27,368 nt of DNA from a virus: positions 1 to 27,368 of the IMG/VR virus record IMGVR_UViG_3300033155_001502, one strand, 5' to 3'. The translations under genes were made by a program, and so were the position numbers. The notes under the pieces are model-generated. The model was not told the DNA's origin. It was given only the letters and a program-made list of their open reading frames with translations, and did not search any database. Shown here piece after piece: positions 12,690 to 25,920 of this stretch; within the stretch, counting starts at the first letter, position 1, and each line of letters opens with the position of its first letter.

Positions 12690-15098
12690 TTACTTTGGTT
12701 CAAATTGTTCTAAACCAAACCCGCCAAGAACATCCATTCCAGATGATTCAAAGTTTTTAGGCGGCGCGTTATTTTGACGCTGGTTAATCAACTCGCTTTG
12801 CTGCGTAGCGACCAACTTAGCCCTGTCGTCTTTACGATCTTCTTTATTATTTTCTTTACCCATTTGAGATCTTGTGTTCATTTCTGCTAATTGCATGTTA
12901 TAACTGAACTCCTCACCCATTAGTTGCTTTTTAATATTAGCTTCTTGCTGCAGCTGTTGTATGTTAAATTGCATTTTAGCTTGCTCTAACTGTATTTTTT
13001 GCTCTGTAAGAACTTGTTGTTTTTGAGTTTCCGCTAATGCTGTTTGCTGTGCTAATTGAGAATTTGCCTGGGCTTGAGCAGCAATATTAGCCTGCTGCGC
13101 CTCTTGATCGCGCTTTGCTTTTTCAGCTTGCCTGACCTTTAAAAATTCATTAGCTGTTTTGATGTTTGATATATTTCTAATATCAATAGCGTCGTCTAAG
13201 CCAATTAAACCCGCGGATAATGCGGTCTGTATATTGTTTTCTAATTTTGCTCTTTCTTCTTCGTCTGGCATTAAGTCTAAAAATATACCAAAGTCATGTA
13301 TTTGCAACGTGGCTAATTCTTCTAAAGTACCAACATTATAAGTACTAATAGACTGCTTTAGCGATTGAGCTGTTAATGGATATGCTAACGCATCTGCTAG
13401 TCGCAAAGCAATATTTTCACACGTAGATAGCGTAATATATAATTGAGCCTGTAATATGTGTCTTGTGGCTGTGTTAGAATTTGCGGCTGCTATTTTTTGT
13501 AAACCAACCAGAGCGTTTTTATCAGGCATTGCACCATCTCTGGCTTCATTAAGACCGGTCACGTCTCTAATCATTTGCAAATAATACTGATATGTTTGTA
13601 TCAATGCTGATAATTTAGCCATCCCATTAGAAGACTGCAGTTCCTGTATAGGCACTTTCCCTCTGTTAATATCCCCGTCTTGGGTTAAAGACCTACCCAC
13701 AATACTACCTGTTTGGAAATACATATTCAATGCCTCCGCTGGGTTATAGTTTGTGCCGTTGCCAAGATCTACTTCAGCTAAACCATCAACATCCACATAA
13801 ACTCCATCGGGAACCATACGGGACATTACTTGTTGCATCTTTAAATGTGTTAGCTGTATCATATCAGCAAAGCCAGTTACTCTACTGACTAAAGAATCTA
13901 TTCGCCCCTTGTACATTCTAGGCGCACAAATAGAATAATTCATTTTAACTTTAGTAGTATCTGCAAACGGCCTAGTCATATTTTCGGCTAACTCCCATTT
14001 TAACATCTTGTTTTGGCCAAGAATTTTAGCGCCACTGAATAAGACCTCTATAGTTCTACCTACTCTTTCAAAATTATCGTTTGGAGGTGGAGCAAAAGTG
14101 TCTGGTTTTTCTAAAGCTTTTTCTAAACCTGTGTCAGTTCTTTTTATTTTAAAAACCTGATCGTTGTAAGTTTTGTATTCAAAATATAATACATTAACTT
14201 GATCATCCGTGTTATCTCCTGCATAATTTCTTAAATAGTTACCAGGAGAATTGCCAAACTTTTGTATTTCTTGTAAGTCTTGATCGCTTAAATAAGGAAA
14301 TTGCTTTTTAACTTCTGACAATGACAAAGTTTTAACTTCGCCAACATAATACAAATCTTCAAAATTTGGATCTTCAGTATAAGAGTATACCAAACTAGCG
14401 GGATCAACATAATCAATTGTAATGCCTTCTGTTGGATTAAAATTTGTTTTTGTTGCGCCAATTCCTAATACAACCAAATCATATAAAACTCTTTTTCTAG
14501 ATTGGTCGTATTTATTTTTATCTAATATAGTATCTATTGCTTGCTCTTCAGCTATTTCAACAGACTCTTTAAATTCTAACTGCATTTTAAGACTCAACTC
14601 TTTAACATCATTAGGTAAAGATTCAGGGTCAGTAGAATACATATTAACACCTAGTGTGTTTTGCACGTTGTCTAAAAAATCCTTAGCCATCATATCGCGC
14701 ATTATTCTTTCAGCGTAATTTGTTCTTTTCTTTAAAGACTCAGGATCTTGCGCAAATGCTTTTATCTCGTAAGATCTTTGAGACATTCCATTAACAACAA
14801 TATCTACAAATTTAGATATTACCGGAATTGGTTTCCAATCTAAGTTTAAATAAGACAAGTCTCCATTGATTGCTAGCTCATCTTTATACTTTTGTATAGA
14901 CTGTTCACCTCTAGCGTAAAGCTTTAATCTGTGAAAATTTTGGTAGTTAGCCATAAATCTATCTCCACCCGAACGTGTATTTCTAAACCATTCGTTTTCG
15001 ATAGCTCTACCTACGGCTTCTCCATACTCTAAGCTTAGCTTTTCTGCAGCAGGTACCACCTGGTCAGGAAATGAACTATTGTAGTTAGTATATACCAT
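12690..15098 (-). CDS. Portal protein
   Basis: This 802-residue protein is of the large portal type seen in podovirus-like phages of Bacteroidota. The N-terminal and central part (about 1-620) is mixed alpha/beta with the expected helical stem region around residues 540-620. The C-terminal 150 residues (about 650-785) form a Gln/Ala/Lys-rich coiled coil (for example QQTALAETQKQQVLTEQKIQ) that would make the long barrel above the portal ring. It directly abuts the large terminase gene (next base after its stop) and precedes the scaffold-like gene by 33 nt, the conserved terminase-portal-scaffold-capsid order. Identification rests on size, helical barrel and position. The P22-like barrel idea is inference. 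Confidence 0.8.
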   Translation of the reverse strand: MVYTNYNSSFPDQVVPAAEKLSLEYGEAVGRAIENEWFRNTRSGGDRFMANYQNFHRLKLYARGEQSIQKYKDELAINGDLSYLNLDWKPIPVISKFVDIVVNGMSQRSYEIKAFAQDPESLKKRTNYAERIMRDMMAKDFLDNVQNTLGVNMYSTDPESLPNDVKELSLKMQLEFKESVEIAEEQAIDTILDKNKYDQSRKRVLYDLVVLGIGATKTNFNPTEGITIDYVDPASLVYSYTEDPNFEDLYYVGEVKTLSLSEVKKQFPYLSDQDLQEIQKFGNSPGNYLRNYAGDNTDDQVNVLYFEYKTYNDQVFKIKRTDTGLEKALEKPDTFAPPPNDNFERVGRTIEVLFSGAKILGQNKMLKWELAENMTRPFADTTKVKMNYSICAPRMYKGRIDSLVSRVTGFADMIQLTHLKMQQVMSRMVPDGVYVDVDGLAEVDLGNGTNYNPAEALNMYFQTGSIVGRSLTQDGDINRGKVPIQELQSSNGMAKLSALIQTYQYYLQMIRDVTGLNEARDGAMPDKNALVGLQKIAAANSNTATRHILQAQLYITLSTCENIALRLADALAYPLTAQSLKQSISTYNVGTLEELATLQIHDFGIFLDLMPDEEERAKLENNIQTALSAGLIGLDDAIDIRNISNIKTANEFLKVRQAEKAKRDQEAQQANIAAQAQANSQLAQQTALAETQKQQVLTEQKIQLEQAKMQFNIQQLQQEANIKKQLMGEEFSYNMQLAEMNTRSQMGKENNKEDRKDDRAKLVATQQSELINQRQNNAPPKNFESSGMDVLGGFGLEQFEPK

Positions 15099-17309
15099 TT
15101 ATATTATTTTTGAACTATGTCCTTTATTATTGTACTTTTTAAAACTTAAAGTATGTGATGTTAATATTCTTTCAGCCCTTGGGCTATATTTGTTTTTGTT
15201 ACAAGCCATTATAGCTAAGCCTGAGCTAATAGAAGCATCAAACTTAGTCCTATTGTTTATATTAAATTTACCCCAATCTTCCAGAGTTTTTTGAAAATAC
15301 ATTGTTCCGTAAGATCCATCTTTCATTAAGCCAACGTGATCTTCTATATAGGATTCGATGGCGGCCGCATGTGCTTGTTTAATATCTTCACTTGAGTTAG
15401 GCATACCACCTATTTCTCTTTCTGTAACTGAAAGTTTATTTAAAAGCTTATCAGGACGATTCATTGAAAAACCTCTGTATCCTCTTCTTTTAAAATAGTA
15501 AAGCAATCTAGGCTTATTGTTTTCTGCTAATATAGGCATACCATAAAATATGCAAGCCATTAATACGTCCTCAAAAAATATATCCGCCGTTTGAGGCCTT
15601 GATATATATTCTAAGAAAAAAGAATTAGCCGGAGCATCTTCCATACTAAACTTTGTTAAACCGTGAAGCGCGCCTTTCGATCCTTTACCGTCAGTTGTTC
15701 CTGATATATCATAGCTATCACAACCAAACGCCCCCATGTGCTCATTACCCGGGTATTTAATCCCATTCTTTAATATTACACGGTTTTGTTGGTTTTTATT
15801 TGGTATCCAAGATATTAAAAACCTACCGTCTTTATTTGGCGCAAACATTACTTTTGTATCTTTAATGCCGTTTTCCCAATAAAAGCTTCCCCGCGTTATT
15901 ACACTAGAGTTTCTTAAATCTTCGTTGTAATCAACTTGTTGATATATTTTAGTAAGATTAAATAAAGATTCCTTAGCTTCATCTCGAAAAGCGTGTTGCT
16001 CCGTTCTTGGAAATTGCCTATAATATTCGTTTAATCCGTCTTGATCATCTTTTAATCCATCAACTTCATTCTGCCAATGCTGTATCACCCCTTGGTCTAT
16101 TATGTCTCCGTGAGGCCCTTTAATTTCTTCTTTGGGTGTATCGAATACAGGTAAGCCATAAGAATCAATAAATCCTTCGTAGTTCCATTCCATAGGTATG
16201 AACAAACTATATAATCCCGAGCTAGTCTGTCCGTTGCGGTTTCTTTTTGTAACGTCTGAGGCATTGTATAATTTTTTAAAATTAGTGCCGCCTTTATCTA
16301 GCGAGTTGCTTGTTGATCCCATCATACACTTACCTACTATTCTAGCTCCTAACCTTAAGCAGGTTTTAGTAACCCTCCAGTTGTTTAGTATATTATCTGG
16401 TCTTTCCCATTTACCCGATTCATCATGCACTAACAGTTTTAATTTTTCTCCATCATAACTGTTATCTCCTGTATTTTTCCAGTCTATAGTAGTATCTAAT
16501 CCCTCGAGCTCTTCGGGGTTTTCACCGCTATCAAGTTTACGTCTAGTAAGTTTTGACGCCGGTATCCTGTAGGCGAGCTCTGTCTTTGGCCTGTCCATAC
16601 CGTCCTGAATTGGTTTGAAAAAGAAGGGGTAGTGGACCGATATCGGAACGACCTTGTCTGTGAACATTTTCTTAGCATCTGCTCCAGACTTAGACAAGAT
16701 ACCATACCGTGCATCTGACGTAATTGTTGCCAGGTTAACGGTCTCTGCTGAAGACATAAATGAAAATCCTGAACGACGGTTTTTAAGATAACACATTCCA
16801 TAAGATCGTGGGTCGGCCTTGCAGGCTTCCCAGAATATAAAGAATAATCTATTTGACTCTCTAAACTCTGCTGCCCCAACATCAATTTTGGAGTGCTGCA
16901 AGTACATATAGTGAGTACCAGTAACGTAAGTAGCCACACCCTTATTATAGAACCAAAACCCCTGCGATCTGCGATTAAATTCTTGATCAATGTAATCATA
17001 GTATTTATCTTTAAAATACTCGGGCTTTGTGTTCCACTCGAATACGCTTTTTATTTTGCTGAGCTCTTTAGGGTACTCAAGCTTCTCCCATTTATCTTTC
17101 TTAGAAGCGTAAACGTTATCTTTTTTTGGCAGTGCAATTTTTAAATTTTGTATTTCGTATATTTCGCCTATTTGCCCCGTCTTGCTTATAACTACAACAT
17201 CATAATCTTTGTTGTAGCCATACTGCCATTTTTTATAACGATTATTTTTTTTAATTACGCTCGGCTTAATATAGTCCGGTAAAATTTTATATAAACTTTG
17301 CTCGTACAT
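15099..17309 (-). CDS. terL: Terminase large subunit (packaging ATPase and nuclease)
   Basis: The 736-residue product would power DNA packaging at the portal and cut concatemers. The N-terminal ATPase shows a non-classical Walker A-like loop KNRRSGFSFMS (176-186), a Walker B LLVHDE (292-297, with catalytic Glu 297) and a coupling GST (331-333). The C-terminal RNase H-like nuclease shows acidic residues at D531 (in FGCDSYD), E596 (in PILAEN) and D691 (in KFDAS), which match the expected metal triad. It is flanked by a candidate small subunit upstream, sharing one base, and the portal downstream. The region coding for residues about 190-270 is unusually GC-rich relative to the rest of the gene. 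A 167-residue frame inside it is a shadow. Confidence 0.92.
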   Translation of the reverse strand: MYEQSLYKILPDYIKPSVIKKNNRYKKWQYGYNKDYDVVVISKTGQIGEIYEIQNLKIALPKKDNVYASKKDKWEKLEYPKELSKIKSVFEWNTKPEYFKDKYYDYIDQEFNRRSQGFWFYNKGVATYVTGTHYMYLQHSKIDVGAAEFRESNRLFFIFWEACKADPRSYGMCYLKNRRSGFSFMSSAETVNLATITSDARYGILSKSGADAKKMFTDKVVPISVHYPFFFKPIQDGMDRPKTELAYRIPASKLTRRKLDSGENPEELEGLDTTIDWKNTGDNSYDGEKLKLLVHDESGKWERPDNILNNWRVTKTCLRLGARIVGKCMMGSTSNSLDKGGTNFKKLYNASDVTKRNRNGQTSSGLYSLFIPMEWNYEGFIDSYGLPVFDTPKEEIKGPHGDIIDQGVIQHWQNEVDGLKDDQDGLNEYYRQFPRTEQHAFRDEAKESLFNLTKIYQQVDYNEDLRNSSVITRGSFYWENGIKDTKVMFAPNKDGRFLISWIPNKNQQNRVILKNGIKYPGNEHMGAFGCDSYDISGTTDGKGSKGALHGLTKFSMEDAPANSFFLEYISRPQTADIFFEDVLMACIFYGMPILAENNKPRLLYYFKRRGYRGFSMNRPDKLLNKLSVTEREIGGMPNSSEDIKQAHAAAIESYIEDHVGLMKDGSYGTMYFQKTLEDWGKFNINNRTKFDASISSGLAIMACNKNKYSPRAERILTSHTLSFKKYNNKGHSSKII

Positions 17310-17581
17310 TATTTAGATCTACCTTCCGCAAAACCCTTAAAAGACTTTGCCCGCGTTTCTTTATTAGCGCCATCAAGTAATGCCTGCTCCTCCTCGATTC
17401 TATTGAGTATTTCAAACGCATCAAATATAGCTAGCTTTTTAGTAGCGGCAGCGTTCTTTAATCTATCAGCTGATATATCATCATCTGAGTCAACAATAGC
17501 TTCTTTAGCTACCTTAATTAATTCCTCAACTGCTCTGCGCCCAGCTTGGATTATATTCTTCTTCGTTTCCTTTACACTCAT
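17309..17581 (-). CDS. Candidate terminase small subunit
   Basis: The 90-residue product is helical and charged. It begins MSVKETKKNIIQAGRRAVEE, has an acidic linker (DSDDDISADRL, about 31-41), a second helix pair, and a basic tail (TRAKSFKGFAEGRSK). It overlaps the start of the large terminase gene by one base and the upstream GroES-like gene by 56 nt. No helix-turn-helix is obvious, so the small-subunit label comes mainly from position and size. I recall a similar short protein directly before the large terminase in marine phages. Confidence 0.5.
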   Translation of the reverse strand: MSVKETKKNIIQAGRRAVEELIKVAKEAIVDSDDDISADRLKNAAATKKLAIFDAFEILNRIEEEQALLDGANKETRAKSFKGFAEGRSK

Positions 17582-18131
17582 ACTTAATTACAATATCATT
17601 TGATTTCATACAATATAAACGCTTATTATCTATTATAAACTCAAACTCGCTGTAAGGCGTAAAGCCAACTAAGTCTCCTGGGTTTATTTTAAGCGCTTCT
17701 AACGCATTGTTTCCATATTTTAATATACCAACTAGGGGCTTTTCAAAATTAATTGAAAACATAGCGTCTTCTTTAATAGGGTTAACAAAACAATAATCTA
17801 AATGAGGTATCCATTTATTATTTTGATTATACATATAAACTTGATCTATATTAACAAAATATAAATCATCTTTAAAGTAAGTGCCACTATTTTTTTCTTT
17901 CCCTCTTATATCATAAAACCTTCTAAATATATTATGATGAATTATAACTTTATCACCAGGTTTTATATTTGTTTTAAAAGCTTTTGGTATTTCAACTACA
18001 ATCGCTTCTTTGCTAACGTGACGAAAGCTTTCTATATTATTATTTAGTAAGAGGCTACTGTCGCCTATTTTCTTTTCATTATTATAGCGCTTATTAGCGG
18101 GTTTAACAATGAACCGGTAAAGACTTCTCAT
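17526..18131 (-). CDS. Tandem GroES-like (co-chaperonin-type) protein
   Basis: The 201-residue product appears to contain two GroES-like units. The first (about 5-102) starts RFIVKP, has a loop with DSSLLLN (24-30) where GroES carries its mobile-loop GGIVL, then IKPGDKVIIHH (56-66) and ends YFVNIDQVYMY, as GroES ends with a 'v...di.ai' strand. The second (about 114-185) reads VGILKYGN, then INPGDLVGFTP (149-159) and LYCMKSNDIVIKYE, closely following the GroES core (G.v..vGn, v..GD.V.f, ....di.a). This is separate from the short groES gene at 24120-24380. It overlaps the small-terminase candidate by 56 nt and the upstream gene by 1 nt. It may cap a phage or host chaperonin during head assembly, or use the fold structurally. 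The fold call is moderately firm; function is inference. Confidence 0.65.
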   Translation of the reverse strand: MRSLYRFIVKPANKRYNNEKKIGDSSLLLNNNIESFRHVSKEAIVVEIPKAFKTNIKPGDKVIIHHNIFRRFYDIRGKEKNSGTYFKDDLYFVNIDQVYMYNQNNKWIPHLDYCFVNPIKEDAMFSINFEKPLVGILKYGNNALEALKINPGDLVGFTPYSEFEFIIDNKRLYCMKSNDIVIKYECKGNEEEYNPSWAQSS

Positions 18132-18604: not shown

Positions 18605-19009
18605 TTATTGATCTTTATTATTACTCATACTTTTAGCTTTTTCCCAAGACCTACCTACGAAGTAAGCTCCATACACTGTAACAAGAAGAGTTTGGAATAT
18701 AGGAATGTACTCTTCTGCTATTTTAAATTCACCAACGTTACCGTCAAAAAACGCTAATATTGAAAATATAAATGTTAAATATATTAAAACAAGTGGACGA
18801 ATGTTCTTTGATAAAAAAGAATCAGATGCCATATCTGCTTGCCATCTAGCTGTAACTTGCTCTTGAGCTTCCTTGTCAGCTTTTTCTAATATTTCAGTTA
18901 TTAGCCTTTGGGCTTCTAGCTTTTCTTCTTTAGTAGTTGTAAGATTATCTAAAACAACCCCTACTTCTTTTATAACGGAGCCGGTAAGCCATTGCCAAAT
19001 CTTTTTCAT
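18605..19009 (-). CDS. Holin-like membrane protein
   Basis: The 134-residue product has a charged helical N-terminus (about 26-55), the block TARWQADMASDSFLSKNIRP (53-72), and two hydrophobic segments at about 69-89 and 101-120, ending in a charged tail. This matches the layout I know for the GTA/phage '3TM' holin group, in which an 'RW..D..SDs.lsk..RP' block precedes the membrane segments. It would sit in the inner membrane and release or activate the lysis enzyme. The gene overlaps the end of the exported DUF4846 gene by 1 nt, which supports a lysis cassette. Only two clear membrane segments are visible. Confidence 0.75.
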   Translation of the reverse strand: MKKIWQWLTGSVIKEVGVVLDNLTTTKEEKLEAQRLITEILEKADKEAQEQVTARWQADMASDSFLSKNIRPLVLIYLTFIFSILAFFDGNVGEFKIAEEYIPIFQTLLVTVYGAYFVGRSWEKAKSMSNNKDQ

Positions 19010-19740
19010 TATATTTTAAATCTTTTTAAATTGTCTTCAGTGAAGCCAAACCCCGTATTGCGCACCTCGTTTATATCAAACCAAACAGTATTACTTTTTG
19101 GGTTTAATAATATATGATGATCTTGTGCTGGCATAAAACTTTGTGATATCATTATTTTTTTATCACCACATTCGTTTTCTATTATATCTACAACAGTAAT
19201 CGCGTGACCCGGAAATCCACCTATGACAAATATATCGCCAGCGGATATATTATTTATGCTAACAGGTATTGTATCGTATTTATTTATTGACCACGTTCCG
19301 GCATAAGACCAAATAACAGCCATGTATTTATTAAAGCTATTAAATGTATTGCTAAGCTTTTTTTGCTTTAAAAACTTATTATAACTATATCGCGTCCCGT
19401 CAGTAAATGTAAATGCTATTTTATTTATATTACCTTCATTAAAATGATACCAGGCTCTAAAATACATAGCGGCATCTGCACATTGGTGCAAATCTCTTTT
19501 GCCAATATTGTAATCAAATTTCGCGGCATAATAATCCCCTAGTCCGTATATAATATATCCGTCATAAGTTTTTACTTCTTCTACTTTTATTTCTTTATTA
19601 ATTAACCATTTATGGTAATTAGTTTTAGCTATTCTTTTATAACTTTCTGGTATTTTAAAATAATTAGATATAGAAAGTTTTTCTTGAGCATTAGTAATGC
19701 CTAAGTAAAGAAAAGCTAAAATAAAAACTAGCTTTTTCAT
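19009..19740 (-). CDS. Exported DUF4846 protein, putative cysteine hydrolase (lysis candidate)
   Basis: The 243-residue product starts with a Sec-type signal peptide (MKKLVFILAFLYLGITNA, predicted cut before Gln19, as is typical in flavobacteria). The mature part carries blocks I associate with DUF4846: LHQCADAAMYFRAWY (around Cys87), AGDIFVIGGFPGHAITVVD (around His179) and ISQSFMPAQDHHILLNP (around Gln200). A Cys, then a GD..v..G..GHa, then a late polar residue is the arrangement of NlpC/P60-like and related cysteine peptidases, so Cys87/His179 are plausible catalytic residues. DUF4846 is known mainly from Bacteroidota and is not a standard endolysin. Overlap with the holin-like gene suggests it degrades cell wall at lysis. 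The family is fairly sure; the catalytic role is inference. Confidence 0.75.
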   Translation of the reverse strand: MKKLVFILAFLYLGITNAQEKLSISNYFKIPESYKRIAKTNYHKWLINKEIKVEEVKTYDGYIIYGLGDYYAAKFDYNIGKRDLHQCADAAMYFRAWYHFNEGNINKIAFTFTDGTRYSYNKFLKQKKLSNTFNSFNKYMAVIWSYAGTWSINKYDTIPVSINNISAGDIFVIGGFPGHAITVVDIIENECGDKKIMISQSFMPAQDHHILLNPKSNTVWFDINEVRNTGFGFTEDNLKRFKI

Positions 19741-23153: not shown

Positions 23154-23711
23154 TTATATATCTTTTGCTATTTTAGAAAATTTTTGCTCGTCTTTATATT
23201 GCTTAGCGGACATCTTTAGTGTAGCTGGCGTATCTTTTTTAAATAAGTCAACTCCTTTTTGAATTAATTGTCCCGCGCTGCTAACCGGCACGGTGTCGTC
23301 ATCGGTTCCGTATTTGTTATCTGCACCTGCTCTTCTAGCTTTAAACTTTTCATCTTTTTTATTCTGCCTTGCTTGCGTTTGTGCCGCCCGTTCTTCATTA
23401 CGAGTTTTAATGCGTTCAGCCCTTGCTTTTTGTCGAATATCAATCCGGCCTTGCTTCCCTTCTAGTCTAGCTTGCTTAGCTTCATTACCTTGCGCTTTAG
23501 CTTTGTTTATACGCCTTTGAAGATTAGTATCATCTTGCCCTTCTCCAACTTTTATTTGATCTTTAGTTTTTTGCAGGTTCGTAAGCCCTAGGTCTATTCT
23601 TTGATTGATGCCCGCCCAGTCGCCAGTCTGTCCAATTCTAGAAACATCTACAGGTGGCACTTTTATGGTCTTAGCTTTTATGCTAGGGATCGCAAATGTG
23701 TTACTTGCCAT
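23154..23711 (-). CDS. Basic coiled-coil probable virion protein
   Basis: The product has 185 residues. The N-terminal 40 residues (FAIPSIKAKTIKVPPVDVSR) look extended, and residues about 40-130 are one long Arg/Lys/Gln/Ala helix, probably a coiled coil. A short acidic loop, ADNKYGTDDDT (about 129-139), resembles a calcium-binding 'D.N.yG.DDD' turn. The tail (about 150-185) is again basic and helical. It overlaps the upstream winged-helix-like gene by 11 nt. A minor structural or DNA-associated role is likely; no family recognised. Confidence 0.55.
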   Translation of the reverse strand: MASNTFAIPSIKAKTIKVPPVDVSRIGQTGDWAGINQRIDLGLTNLQKTKDQIKVGEGQDDTNLQRRINKAKAQGNEAKQARLEGKQGRIDIRQKARAERIKTRNEERAAQTQARQNKKDEKFKARRAGADNKYGTDDDTVPVSSAGQLIQKGVDLFKKDTPATLKMSAKQYKDEQKFSKIAKDI

Positions 23712-24123
23712 AGTTTATTTTTTTTATAGCTAACCCTAAGGCACGATCTGAATACGTTTTAGGATTTTTTATTAATGGTATTTCTTCTTCATCCAAAAGC
23801 ATTTTATACATACGTGTAATCATCTGCCTACATTTGAATGAAGTTTTATATATGTGATACTTTTGTGTTGTATGATTTCTTTTGCGCCATACACTCACCC
23901 AGTCTTCTTTTAAAAGCCTATTCCATCTTTTATTATCCCAACTGTATGCGAGCACCCCGGTTTTATAATCGTTTTTAGTAAAATGATCCAAGCAGTCAAA
24001 GTATATTAAAAGCTCTAAGTCTGCTTCTTGTAAACCGTGTGTTTTAGCGGTCCATTTTCTAATTACGCGGTAATGCTTTAGAATATTTAAAGAACGCAAA
24101 TCAGATGCCTCTAAATGCCTCAT
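23701..24123 (-). CDS. MarR-like winged helix protein
   Basis: The 140-residue product reads as a small winged helix. HYRVIRKWTAKTHGLQEADL (17-36) and ELLIYFDCLDHFTKNDYKTG supply helices like the MarR core, the SWDNKRWNRLLKEDWVSVWR block (about 61-80) looks like the recognition helix leading into the wing, and TTQKYHIYKTSFKCRQMITR follows as the wing strand and C-terminal helix. I recall the same arrangement in marine phage genomes. Its start overlaps the stop of groES by 4 nt (ATGA), so it is made with the chaperonins. It could regulate late transcription or bind DNA during packaging. Confidence 0.65.
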   Translation of the reverse strand: MRHLEASDLRSLNILKHYRVIRKWTAKTHGLQEADLELLIYFDCLDHFTKNDYKTGVLAYSWDNKRWNRLLKEDWVSVWRKRNHTTQKYHIYKTSFKCRQMITRMYKMLLDEEEIPLIKNPKTYSDRALGLAIKKINYGK

Positions 24124-24380
24124 ACAACTATTACTACATCCTGCGCTTTTATGACATTATACATATTGCCTTCAAATTCTATTTTGTGGCCCGCGTGGCG
24201 GTCGTAATATATAACATCATTATTCTTTATAGCCTGTACGTCTTCACCGGCTGATATTACTTTTGCTTTTGCATATCTAATATCTTCCCTTTGCTTTTCC
24301 GCTAAAAGTAAACCACCCTTTGTTTCTTTTGGGCCTTGCTTTTCTTTTAATACTATTAAGTTTCTACCTATTGCTTTCAT
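24120..24380 (-). CDS. groES: GroES-type co-chaperonin
   Basis: The 86-residue product would form the lid of a chaperonin chamber. It begins MKAIGRNLIVLKE like the GroES first strand (usually 'plhDRVlVk'). The mobile loop is about 14-33 and carries GGLLL (22-26), the counterpart of GroES GGIVL that docks on the GroEL apical domain. Then AKVISAGEDV (39-48), NNDVIYYD (53-60, the v..GD.V.f core) and the final KAQDVVIVV follow. It is about ten residues shorter than bacterial GroES, with a shortened roof region. Its ATG lies inside the end of groEL (17-nt overlap), with AGGAG directly before it, too close for a normal ribosome-binding site. The gene order groEL-groES is reversed relative to host operons. 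Confidence 0.88.
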   Translation of the reverse strand: MKAIGRNLIVLKEKQGPKETKGGLLLAEKQREDIRYAKAKVISAGEDVQAIKNNDVIYYDRHAGHKIEFEGNMYNVIKAQDVVIVV

Positions 24381-25920
24381 CTCCTACTCTTAAGTTATTG
24401 ATTACACAATCAGTTGAAATTATTGTTGTAGCTACTGAAGCCGCATTTTTAAGAGCGCTTTTAGTTACTAGTAGTGGATCTATAATCCCTGCTCGTACCA
24501 TATTTACTTCTTTTCCTGTAACCACGTTTAACCCTTTGCTCTTTGTTTGGGGATAAACTATTTCAAGACCTGCGTTTGTAAGGATTGTTTCATAAGGCGC
24601 TTTAATTGCCTTTAACAATACTTTCTCACCTTCGCTTTTAGCTGTTGTAAGAACAGACGCATTCAACAAAGCTATACCTCCACCTGAAACTATACCTTCT
24701 TTTATTGCGGCTTTTGTAGCACAAATAGCATCTTCTACTCTATCTGTTTTTTCTTTTAACTCTACTTCTGAGTTTGCTCCAACTTTGACAATAGCCACTT
24801 TAGCGGAGAGACGAGCAAGTCTTTTTTCAAATCGAATTTTGTAACCCGCGAGCGTAGCTTCACTAAGTTGTTTTTTAACCTGCTCCACCAGTTTTTCAAC
24901 TTCTTCACTGGGTTCACTAATTTGCAGAATCGTTTCTTCATTGTTTGTTACAGATTTTAAGCATTCCCCTAAATACTCGGGTTGTATTAAATCCATGTCA
25001 TCCCCTAAATTTTCATTTATTACAGTTGCACCTGTTAATAGCGCTAAATCCTGCATAACTTCTTTTTTAGTTACTCCATAAGTAGGAGCATCGATAACAT
25101 TTACTTTTATATTGCCCTTAACGTGATTCATGGCAAGAGCGTTTAACACCTCAAGTCCAACATCGGCAATTATTAGAAGGCTTCTTTTATTTTTAATAAC
25201 GTATTCTAATACGCTTTGTATTTTTCTTATATTAGGAACTTCTGATTCAACAATTAAAACTAAAGGATTGTCTAACTCAGAAACACCAGTTTCTTTATTT
25301 GTTACAAAATGAAAATTCTTTAATCCTTTTTCGTATTGAACCCCGTCAACCACTTCTGTAGTCGTCGTAGTTTCATTTGAAGTTTCCATTATAACAACAC
25401 CTGTTCTGTCAACAGCTTTGAAGGCGTCAGCAATTAAGTTACCTAGCTCAGCATCGTTGTTTGCTGAGATTGTTGCAACTTGGTTTAACATTTCGCCGGT
25501 TACAGGTATGGCTGTTTTTTCTAATGCCGCGCATACCTTTTCAACCGCTAGGGTTATGCCTTCTTTAATTTCGCGAGTTCCATGCGACTTTAGCGCTTCA
25601 TATGCCTCTTTTAAAATTGCATGCGCCAACACCGTCGCTGTGGTGGTTCCGTCGCCTGCCTCGCTAACCGTTCTTTGAGCCGCTTGCTTTATAAGTGTAG
25701 CACCTATATTTTCAACCGGATCTAACAGTGTTATTGTATTTGCTACAGTTACTCCATCTTTTGTTATGACGGGTCTTCCTGTATTATCTTCAAGTATCAC
25801 ACACTTGCCGCTAGCCCCTAGAGTGGAGCTAACAGCTTTTGTGAGTTTTTCTATTCCAGCAAGAATCTTTTCTTTAGCGGTGTCGCCAAAGTTTAAATTC
25901 TTAACAATTTTGTCAGTCAT
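24364..25920 (-). CDS. groEL: GroEL-type chaperonin (Hsp60), divergent phage version
   Basis: The 518-residue product is a full-length group I chaperonin. ATP-site residues are kept: ITKDGVTVA (Asp55, E. coli Asp52), GDGTTTATVLA (Asp90, E. coli Asp87), RVEDAICATKAA (Asp397, E. coli Asp398), SGGGIALL (412-419) and GIIDP (Asp481, E. coli Asp495). Differences from host GroEL are clear. The TLGPKG nucleotide loop reads TLGASG (33-38), the apical PGFGDRRK reads PTYGVTKK (279-286), the Gly-Gly hinge before VAVIKVG reads Ala-Lys (373-374), and the C-terminal GGM tail is missing (it ends INNLRVGDESNR). It precedes groES and probably folds phage capsid or tail proteins. It is not a host fragment: it is complete, divergent and embedded in phage genes. 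Confidence 0.93.
   Translation of the reverse strand: MTDKIVKNLNFGDTAKEKILAGIEKLTKAVSSTLGASGKCVILEDNTGRPVITKDGVTVANTITLLDPVENIGATLIKQAAQRTVSEAGDGTTTATVLAHAILKEAYEALKSHGTREIKEGITLAVEKVCAALEKTAIPVTGEMLNQVATISANNDAELGNLIADAFKAVDRTGVVIMETSNETTTTTEVVDGVQYEKGLKNFHFVTNKETGVSELDNPLVLIVESEVPNIRKIQSVLEYVIKNKRSLLIIADVGLEVLNALAMNHVKGNIKVNVIDAPTYGVTKKEVMQDLALLTGATVINENLGDDMDLIQPEYLGECLKSVTNNEETILQISEPSEEVEKLVEQVKKQLSEATLAGYKIRFEKRLARLSAKVAIVKVGANSEVELKEKTDRVEDAICATKAAIKEGIVSGGGIALLNASVLTTAKSEGEKVLLKAIKAPYETILTNAGLEIVYPQTKSKGLNVVTGKEVNMVRAGIIDPLLVTKSALKNAASVATTIISTDCVINNLRVGDESNR

Follow-up and report, generated by a model that had tools for sequence, protein, structure and literature searches.

The window analysed here, 27,368 bases long and an entire IMG/VR record, carries a group I chaperonin gene, a short co-chaperonin gene overlapping it and, 6 kb away, a second co-chaperonin gene of double length that had been overlooked in the earlier, sequence-only reading of this DNA. 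We consider it likely, judging from sequence comparisons, that these genes encode a phage chaperonin system: a folding chamber of late infection, made of a single GroEL ring and of a short and a long lid protein, and expressed in part from a co-transcribed cassette. Late in infection, the phage would produce its own ATP-driven chamber for the folding of virion proteins. GroEL would operate as a single seven-subunit ring, its inter-ring contact segment being deleted. The short GroES and the long protein, a tandem of Cpn10 folds, would together form the lid, perhaps in a mixed ring like that of chloroplasts. The groEL, groES and winged-helix genes would be transcribed together, their overlaps reflecting compact packing and possibly translational coupling. 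Features are listed in Table 1.

Table 1. Chaperonin genes of the window and neighbouring features
Feature	Position	Strand	Basis
Portal protein	12690..15098	minus	context
Terminase large subunit	15099..17309	minus	context
90-aa ORF between long co-chaperonin and terminase	17309..17581	minus	no family match
Long co-chaperonin, 201 aa, predicted tandem of two Cpn10 folds, Cpn20-like	17526..18131	minus	PHROG, model
140-aa protein, predicted MarR-like winged-helix fold	23701..24123	minus	AlphaFold2 model
groES, short co-chaperonin, 86 aa, single Cpn10 domain	24120..24380	minus	Pfam, PHROG
groEL, group I chaperonin, 518 aa	24364..25920	minus	Pfam, PHROG

Going by the genome sizes of its relatives, the record probably covers part of a genome of 60-77 kb. 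Its portal protein is 53% identical to that of ctfjg026, 44% to that of Maribacter phage Panino and 42% to those of 68 Flavobacterium elemo isolates; identity is 35% with Callevirus (phi38:1, phi40:1, Calle) and at most 28% with Baltivirus and Gundelvirus. The chaperonin system belongs to a lineage of flavobacterial podoviruses, with Elemovirus, Callevirus, Panino and ctfjg026 as kin. Since Flavobacterium, Maribacter, Cellulophaga and Tenacibaculum are the hosts of the isolated relatives, a flavobacterial host is also expected here; the marine phage of the window probably infects Flavobacteria. As the sequence-only reading had proposed, the chaperonin pair sits among late genes, with portal, terminase, holin and virion protein families on the same strand. 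Searches of the window for tRNAs and Rfam families found none. Next to the holin gene, positions 19009-19740 (minus strand) encode a 243-aa DUF4846 protein (PF16138, E=1e-49), possibly with a role in lysis or at the cell surface.

A complete chaperonin and co-chaperonin had been described from the letters alone, groEL first, with successive overlaps of 17 and 4 nt, and both coordinates and families were verified. The groES start lies 17 nt inside groEL, and groES overlaps the 140-aa gene by 4 nt (ATGA). The groEL product matches Pfam Cpn60_TCP1 (PF00118, E=9.7e-54, above the curated cut-off) over positions 1-487 of the 490 of the profile, as well as PHROG 5725 'chaperonin groEL' (E=1.5e-130). 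The groES product matches Pfam Cpn10 (PF00166, E=9.7e-12, again above the curated cut-off) and PHROG 3188 'co-chaperonin GroES', and profile-profile comparison with cellular GroES gave 99.1% (E=7e-19). Its assignment to the Cpn10/GroES family is based on this profile similarity and on a hydrophobic mobile-loop motif, GGLLL, whose GG(L/I)xL form is kept. The mobile loop is 1-4 residues longer than that of E. coli, and the roof segment has 8 residues instead of 17; some bacterial GroES are equally short there.

The winged-helix call on the third gene had been a guess, and structure prediction agrees with it. When the AlphaFold2 model of the 140-aa protein (pLDDT 89) was compared with the PDB, winged-helix proteins of the MarR family came out best (E=5.6e-4, probability 1.00), with a modest TM of 0.43-0.49; the protein has no Pfam family, and a PDB sequence search returned no significant match. 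Homologues are found near groES in the groEL-first relatives, and the product may regulate the chaperonin cassette. In elemo, Panino and ctfjg026, the homologue near groES is on the opposite strand.

Gene order was surveyed in 223 loci from a viral collection, yielding 100 distinct groEL-groES junctions, with overlaps counted from the conserved MxA(I/V)(G/N) start. All 100 were groEL-first and 98 overlapped by 1-20 nt: 17 nt in 54 junctions, 20 nt in 10, 14 nt in 8, 4 nt in 12 and 1 nt in 14, the remaining 2 having a gap. The 4-nt overlap between groES and the winged-helix gene was present in 88 of the surveyed junctions. This order is, as had been claimed, opposite to that of the bacterial operon, since 74 of 75 resolvable bacterial genome contigs were groES-first. 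The sole exception belongs to the phage lineage of the window: contig L157 (DQLC01000067.1), binned in an Alphaproteobacteria MAG, carries the groEL-groES-winged-helix cassette and is probably a phage contig in a bacterial bin.

The reversed order was also considered as a rarity and discarded, given the 100 viral junctions and the deposited Elemovirus genomes, which are annotated groEL-first with a 1-nt overlap. The order is the same in ctfjg026 (overlap of 44 nt from the annotated groES start, none from the likely start) and in Panino, where a small ORF lies in between; phi38:1 is groES-first with one gene in between. The immuto and Bacteroides DAC phages, from other branches, have the bacterial groES-groEL order. 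A 2017 study of virioplankton chaperonins reportedly found that subunit gene order tracks GroEL phylogeny, in agreement with the present data. The idea that few phages carry both subunits is unsupported, as numerous deposited phages have the two: the 68 elemo isolates, Callevirus, Panino, and the immuto and Bacteroides DAC phages. Among environmental genomes of the phi38:1 group, 36 had already been reported to encode GroEL (Nishimura 2017, PMC5332604).

We regard the junction as more than a product of chance, since it recurs in 100 distinct contig junctions and purifying selection is seen on its genes (dN/dS mostly 0.03-0.2 across four genes, including groEL, groES and the long co-chaperonin gene). 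The further suggestion that translational coupling fixes a lid-to-ring ratio is unsupported: of the 30 gene junctions listed in the window, 11 have an overlap of 1 nt or more, so that an overlap by itself says little about a tuned ratio, and overlap length varies among relatives. Moreover, a ratio set at this junction would be upset by the second co-chaperonin gene 6 kb away. A Shine-Dalgarno argument for groES was given no weight: AGGAG directly abuts the ATG, and most other starts in the window have AT-rich leaders.

Could these genes be a recent capture from the host, or the window an assembly chimera of host and phage? We hold this to be extremely improbable. The closest cellular GroELs are about 40-42% identical to the phage protein, and in a tree of 77 GroELs, the 32 window-clade sequences grouped with full support (100%) outside the cellular groups. 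A chimera is at odds with the conserved synteny of the flanking genes across about 100 contigs. The one result compatible with a host origin comes from AU tests, which rejected neither an ancient Bacteroidota donor (p=0.45) nor a Flavobacteriales donor (p=0.37). In the same tree, the elemo, ctfjg026, Panino and phi38:1 GroELs were on long branches whose exact joins are unsure. One Bacteroides phage GroEL nested within Bacteroidota. As far as sequence comparison goes, the GroEL/GroES pair is old in phages. Some records filed as phages (H5-H8: Salmonella AFYI01000007 and AGRM01000005, and contigs labelled Acinetobacter phage MD-2021a) resemble bacterial chromosome contigs, so that counts of 'phage' GroELs are inflated.

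We examined the GroEL sequences for residues of known function. D52, D87, D398, K51, D495, T30, T89-T91 and the glycine-rich loops are kept in all 32 window-clade GroELs. Pro33 is replaced by Ala in 31 of them, the window included, and N479 by D in 17. Alignment of 69 phage GroELs shows a gap at the inter-ring segment (E461, S463, V464 in E. coli numbering) in 66, that of the window among them, and the segment is present in all 79 cellular GroELs; the window GroEL also carries E in place of R452. The GGM tail, present in 72 of the 79 cellular sequences, is found in none of the 69 phage GroELs. The well-known single-ring GroEL mutant SR1 alters R452, E461, S463 and V464. Because both the inter-ring contact segment and the GGM tail are absent, the window GroEL is predicted to form a single ring. 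Its full-length family match and its ATP/Mg residues place it in group I; this assignment stands despite the absence of double-ring contacts, as single-ring members do not require them. The inter-ring segment still holds residues in the GroELs of elemo and ctfjg026, and from these alignments a single-ring architecture is not universal across the phage family. In one contig (L068), the groEL, long co-chaperonin, terminase and portal genes are all fragmented, which suggests assembly or sequencing errors.

The second co-chaperonin, encoded near the terminase gene, matches PHROG 13932 'co-chaperonin GroES' (E=5.3e-24), and scores 20.8 bits against Pfam Cpn10, slightly below the cut-off of 21.1. 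Its predicted model (pLDDT 88.6) was compared with solved structures using Foldseek. The best match was chloroplast Cpn20 (7ekq_R), a head-to-tail double Cpn10, aligned over the full length (E=2.1e-5, TM 0.56-0.58), while single GroES chains matched one half of the model. Chaperonin cpn10 of phi18:3 (TM 0.76) was among the nearest viral predicted structures. Sequence searches of the PDB returned chance matches only, and Cpn20 surfaced by fold comparison alone. Comparison with a GroES profile identified the C-terminal half clearly as Cpn10 (E=5e-12) and gave a weak match for the N-terminal half (E=5e-4, probability 30%, with shuffled controls at 0.2-0.8). The likeliest reading of the long protein is a single chain with two Cpn10 folds, the N-terminal fold resting on the predicted model. 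In an alignment read by eye, and thus provisional, a GroES-like hydrophobic loop is found in domain 1 of all relatives. By the same provisional reading, the loop of domain 2 is shortened in the window, elemo, Panino and ctfjg026, and kept-like in phi13:2 and phi38:1. The mobile loop of domain 2 therefore seems lost in the window lineage, in which case not every lid domain would touch GroEL.

The long protein ends with a tail, KGNEEEYNPSWAQSS (residues 185-201; 17529-17580, minus strand), that is highly conserved in the window clade and absent from the long proteins of elemo, Panino, ctfjg026, phi38:1 and Baltivirus. The 90-aa ORF shares 56 nt with the 3' end of the gene for the long protein, across this EEYNPSWA tail, and terminates at the terminase start. 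Baltivirus has an ORF of similar size at the equivalent place, and it is possible that the product is a small terminase subunit.

A different role for the long protein deserves to be weighed, namely that of an assembly or packaging factor working with the terminase, its co-chaperonin role having been lost, so that GroEL and the short GroES would be the whole machine. In most contigs its gene has a fixed site, 132-225 nt upstream of that for the terminase and distant from groEL, and the missing loop of domain 2, the weak N-terminal similarity to GroES and the conserved, lineage-specific EEYNPSW tail all go in this direction. The GroES-like loop motif in domain 1 of every relative argues against it, as does the distribution of the genes. 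Of 28 full records, 27 encode both the long protein and the short GroES, and 25 encode GroEL. GroEL is missing from two lid-bearing records, those of Baltivirus phi13:2 and phi19:3, and Gundel_1 has none of the three proteins, a pattern that fits parts functioning together. Likewise, groEL and groES are present in 30 of the 31 long-protein loci with sufficient upstream sequence, and in the 31st they lie farther upstream in the full record. From the co-occurrence in 27 of 27 records, and from Baltivirus lacking GroEL, the two co-chaperonins appear to behave as a unit, with or without a phage ring. All in all, we give the packaging role a minor but appreciable chance, and keep the two-part lid as our preferred reading.

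Dependence of the phage GroEL on a lid is not automatic, because the chaperonins of phages EL, OBP and AR9 operate without a co-chaperonin (PMC9598537, PMC7185714). The window GroEL may similarly prevent aggregation independently of a lid, its co-chaperonins mainly serving the host GroEL as T4 gp31 does. This would account for the alteration of apical residues that bind substrate and GroES (Y203H, L234Q, V263A, V264M), and for the co-chaperonins of Baltivirus in the absence of a phage GroEL. We nevertheless find it unlikely, as in 98 of 100 distinct junctions the two genes are direct neighbours that overlap, which speaks for a shared function.

If ring and lids do work together, their stoichiometry may be considered. 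In chloroplasts, which use Cpn20 and Cpn10, a mixed ring of seven-fold symmetry is the presumed form of the native lid (review PMC5780408). By analogy, three tandem-Cpn10 chains and one single-Cpn10 chain would supply seven domains on the seven-fold single ring, and the phage lineage would have evolved a chloroplast-like mixed lid independently; in the sister Baltivirus phages, such a two-part lid would be placed on the host GroEL. We put this forward as a speculative proposal, and rather doubt it ourselves.

The chaperonin system can finally be compared with known ones. Elemovirus (NC_055853), ctfjg026 (MW202828), Panino (PP540027) and Callevirus phi38:1 (NC_021796) belong to the same lineage (portal 35-53% identical) and, like the window, encode a phage GroEL, a short GroES and a long 'co-chaperonin GroES' near the terminase. 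They differ from the window in gene order for phi38:1, where groES precedes groEL, and in the inter-ring segment for elemo and ctfjg026, whose residues are retained where those of the window are gapped; the extra conserved tail of the long protein is found in the window clade only. GroEL and GroES were reported in Panino in 2024 (PMC11590407), and 'chaperonin cpn10' was named a core protein of Pervagoviridae in 2021 (PMC8776804). In the open-licence literature, we found no earlier description of the tandem co-chaperonin, of two lids in one system or of the deleted inter-ring segment. In Bacteroidota phages, a 'co-chaperonin GroES' annotation next to the terminase may conceal a two-domain protein.

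With the bacterial groESL operon and E. coli GroEL-GroES, the phage genes share the group I chaperonin and Cpn10 families, the ATPase residues and the mobile loop. The phage proteins are set apart by an identity of about 40%, the opposite gene order, the lack of GGM tail and inter-ring segment, a shortened GroES roof and the additional long co-chaperonin. The likeness to chloroplast Cpn20/Cpn10 (PDB 7ekq) would lie in a chain of two Cpn10 domains, as modelled, beside a single-domain Cpn10; identity in the structural alignment is about 15%, and the mobile loop of phage domain 2 is apparently lost.

Among phage relatives of GroEL, those of OBP (gp246) and AR9 (gp228) are single-ring (PMC9598537) and that of EL (gp146) alternates double and single rings (PMC7185714); all three work lid-free, whereas here two co-chaperonin genes are present. 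T4 gp31 is likewise a phage co-chaperonin of Cpn10 fold that serves phage proteins, but T4 relies on the host GroEL, while the window phage encodes its own. Where the structurally characterised phage chaperonins EL, OBP and AR9 are lid-free and T4-like phages are lid-only, the window lineage has a ring, a lid and a double-length lid, the ring being seemingly single. It would offer a natural test of how a seven-fold ring works with a lid whose contacts are uneven in number, which has so far been studied only in chloroplasts and apicoplasts.
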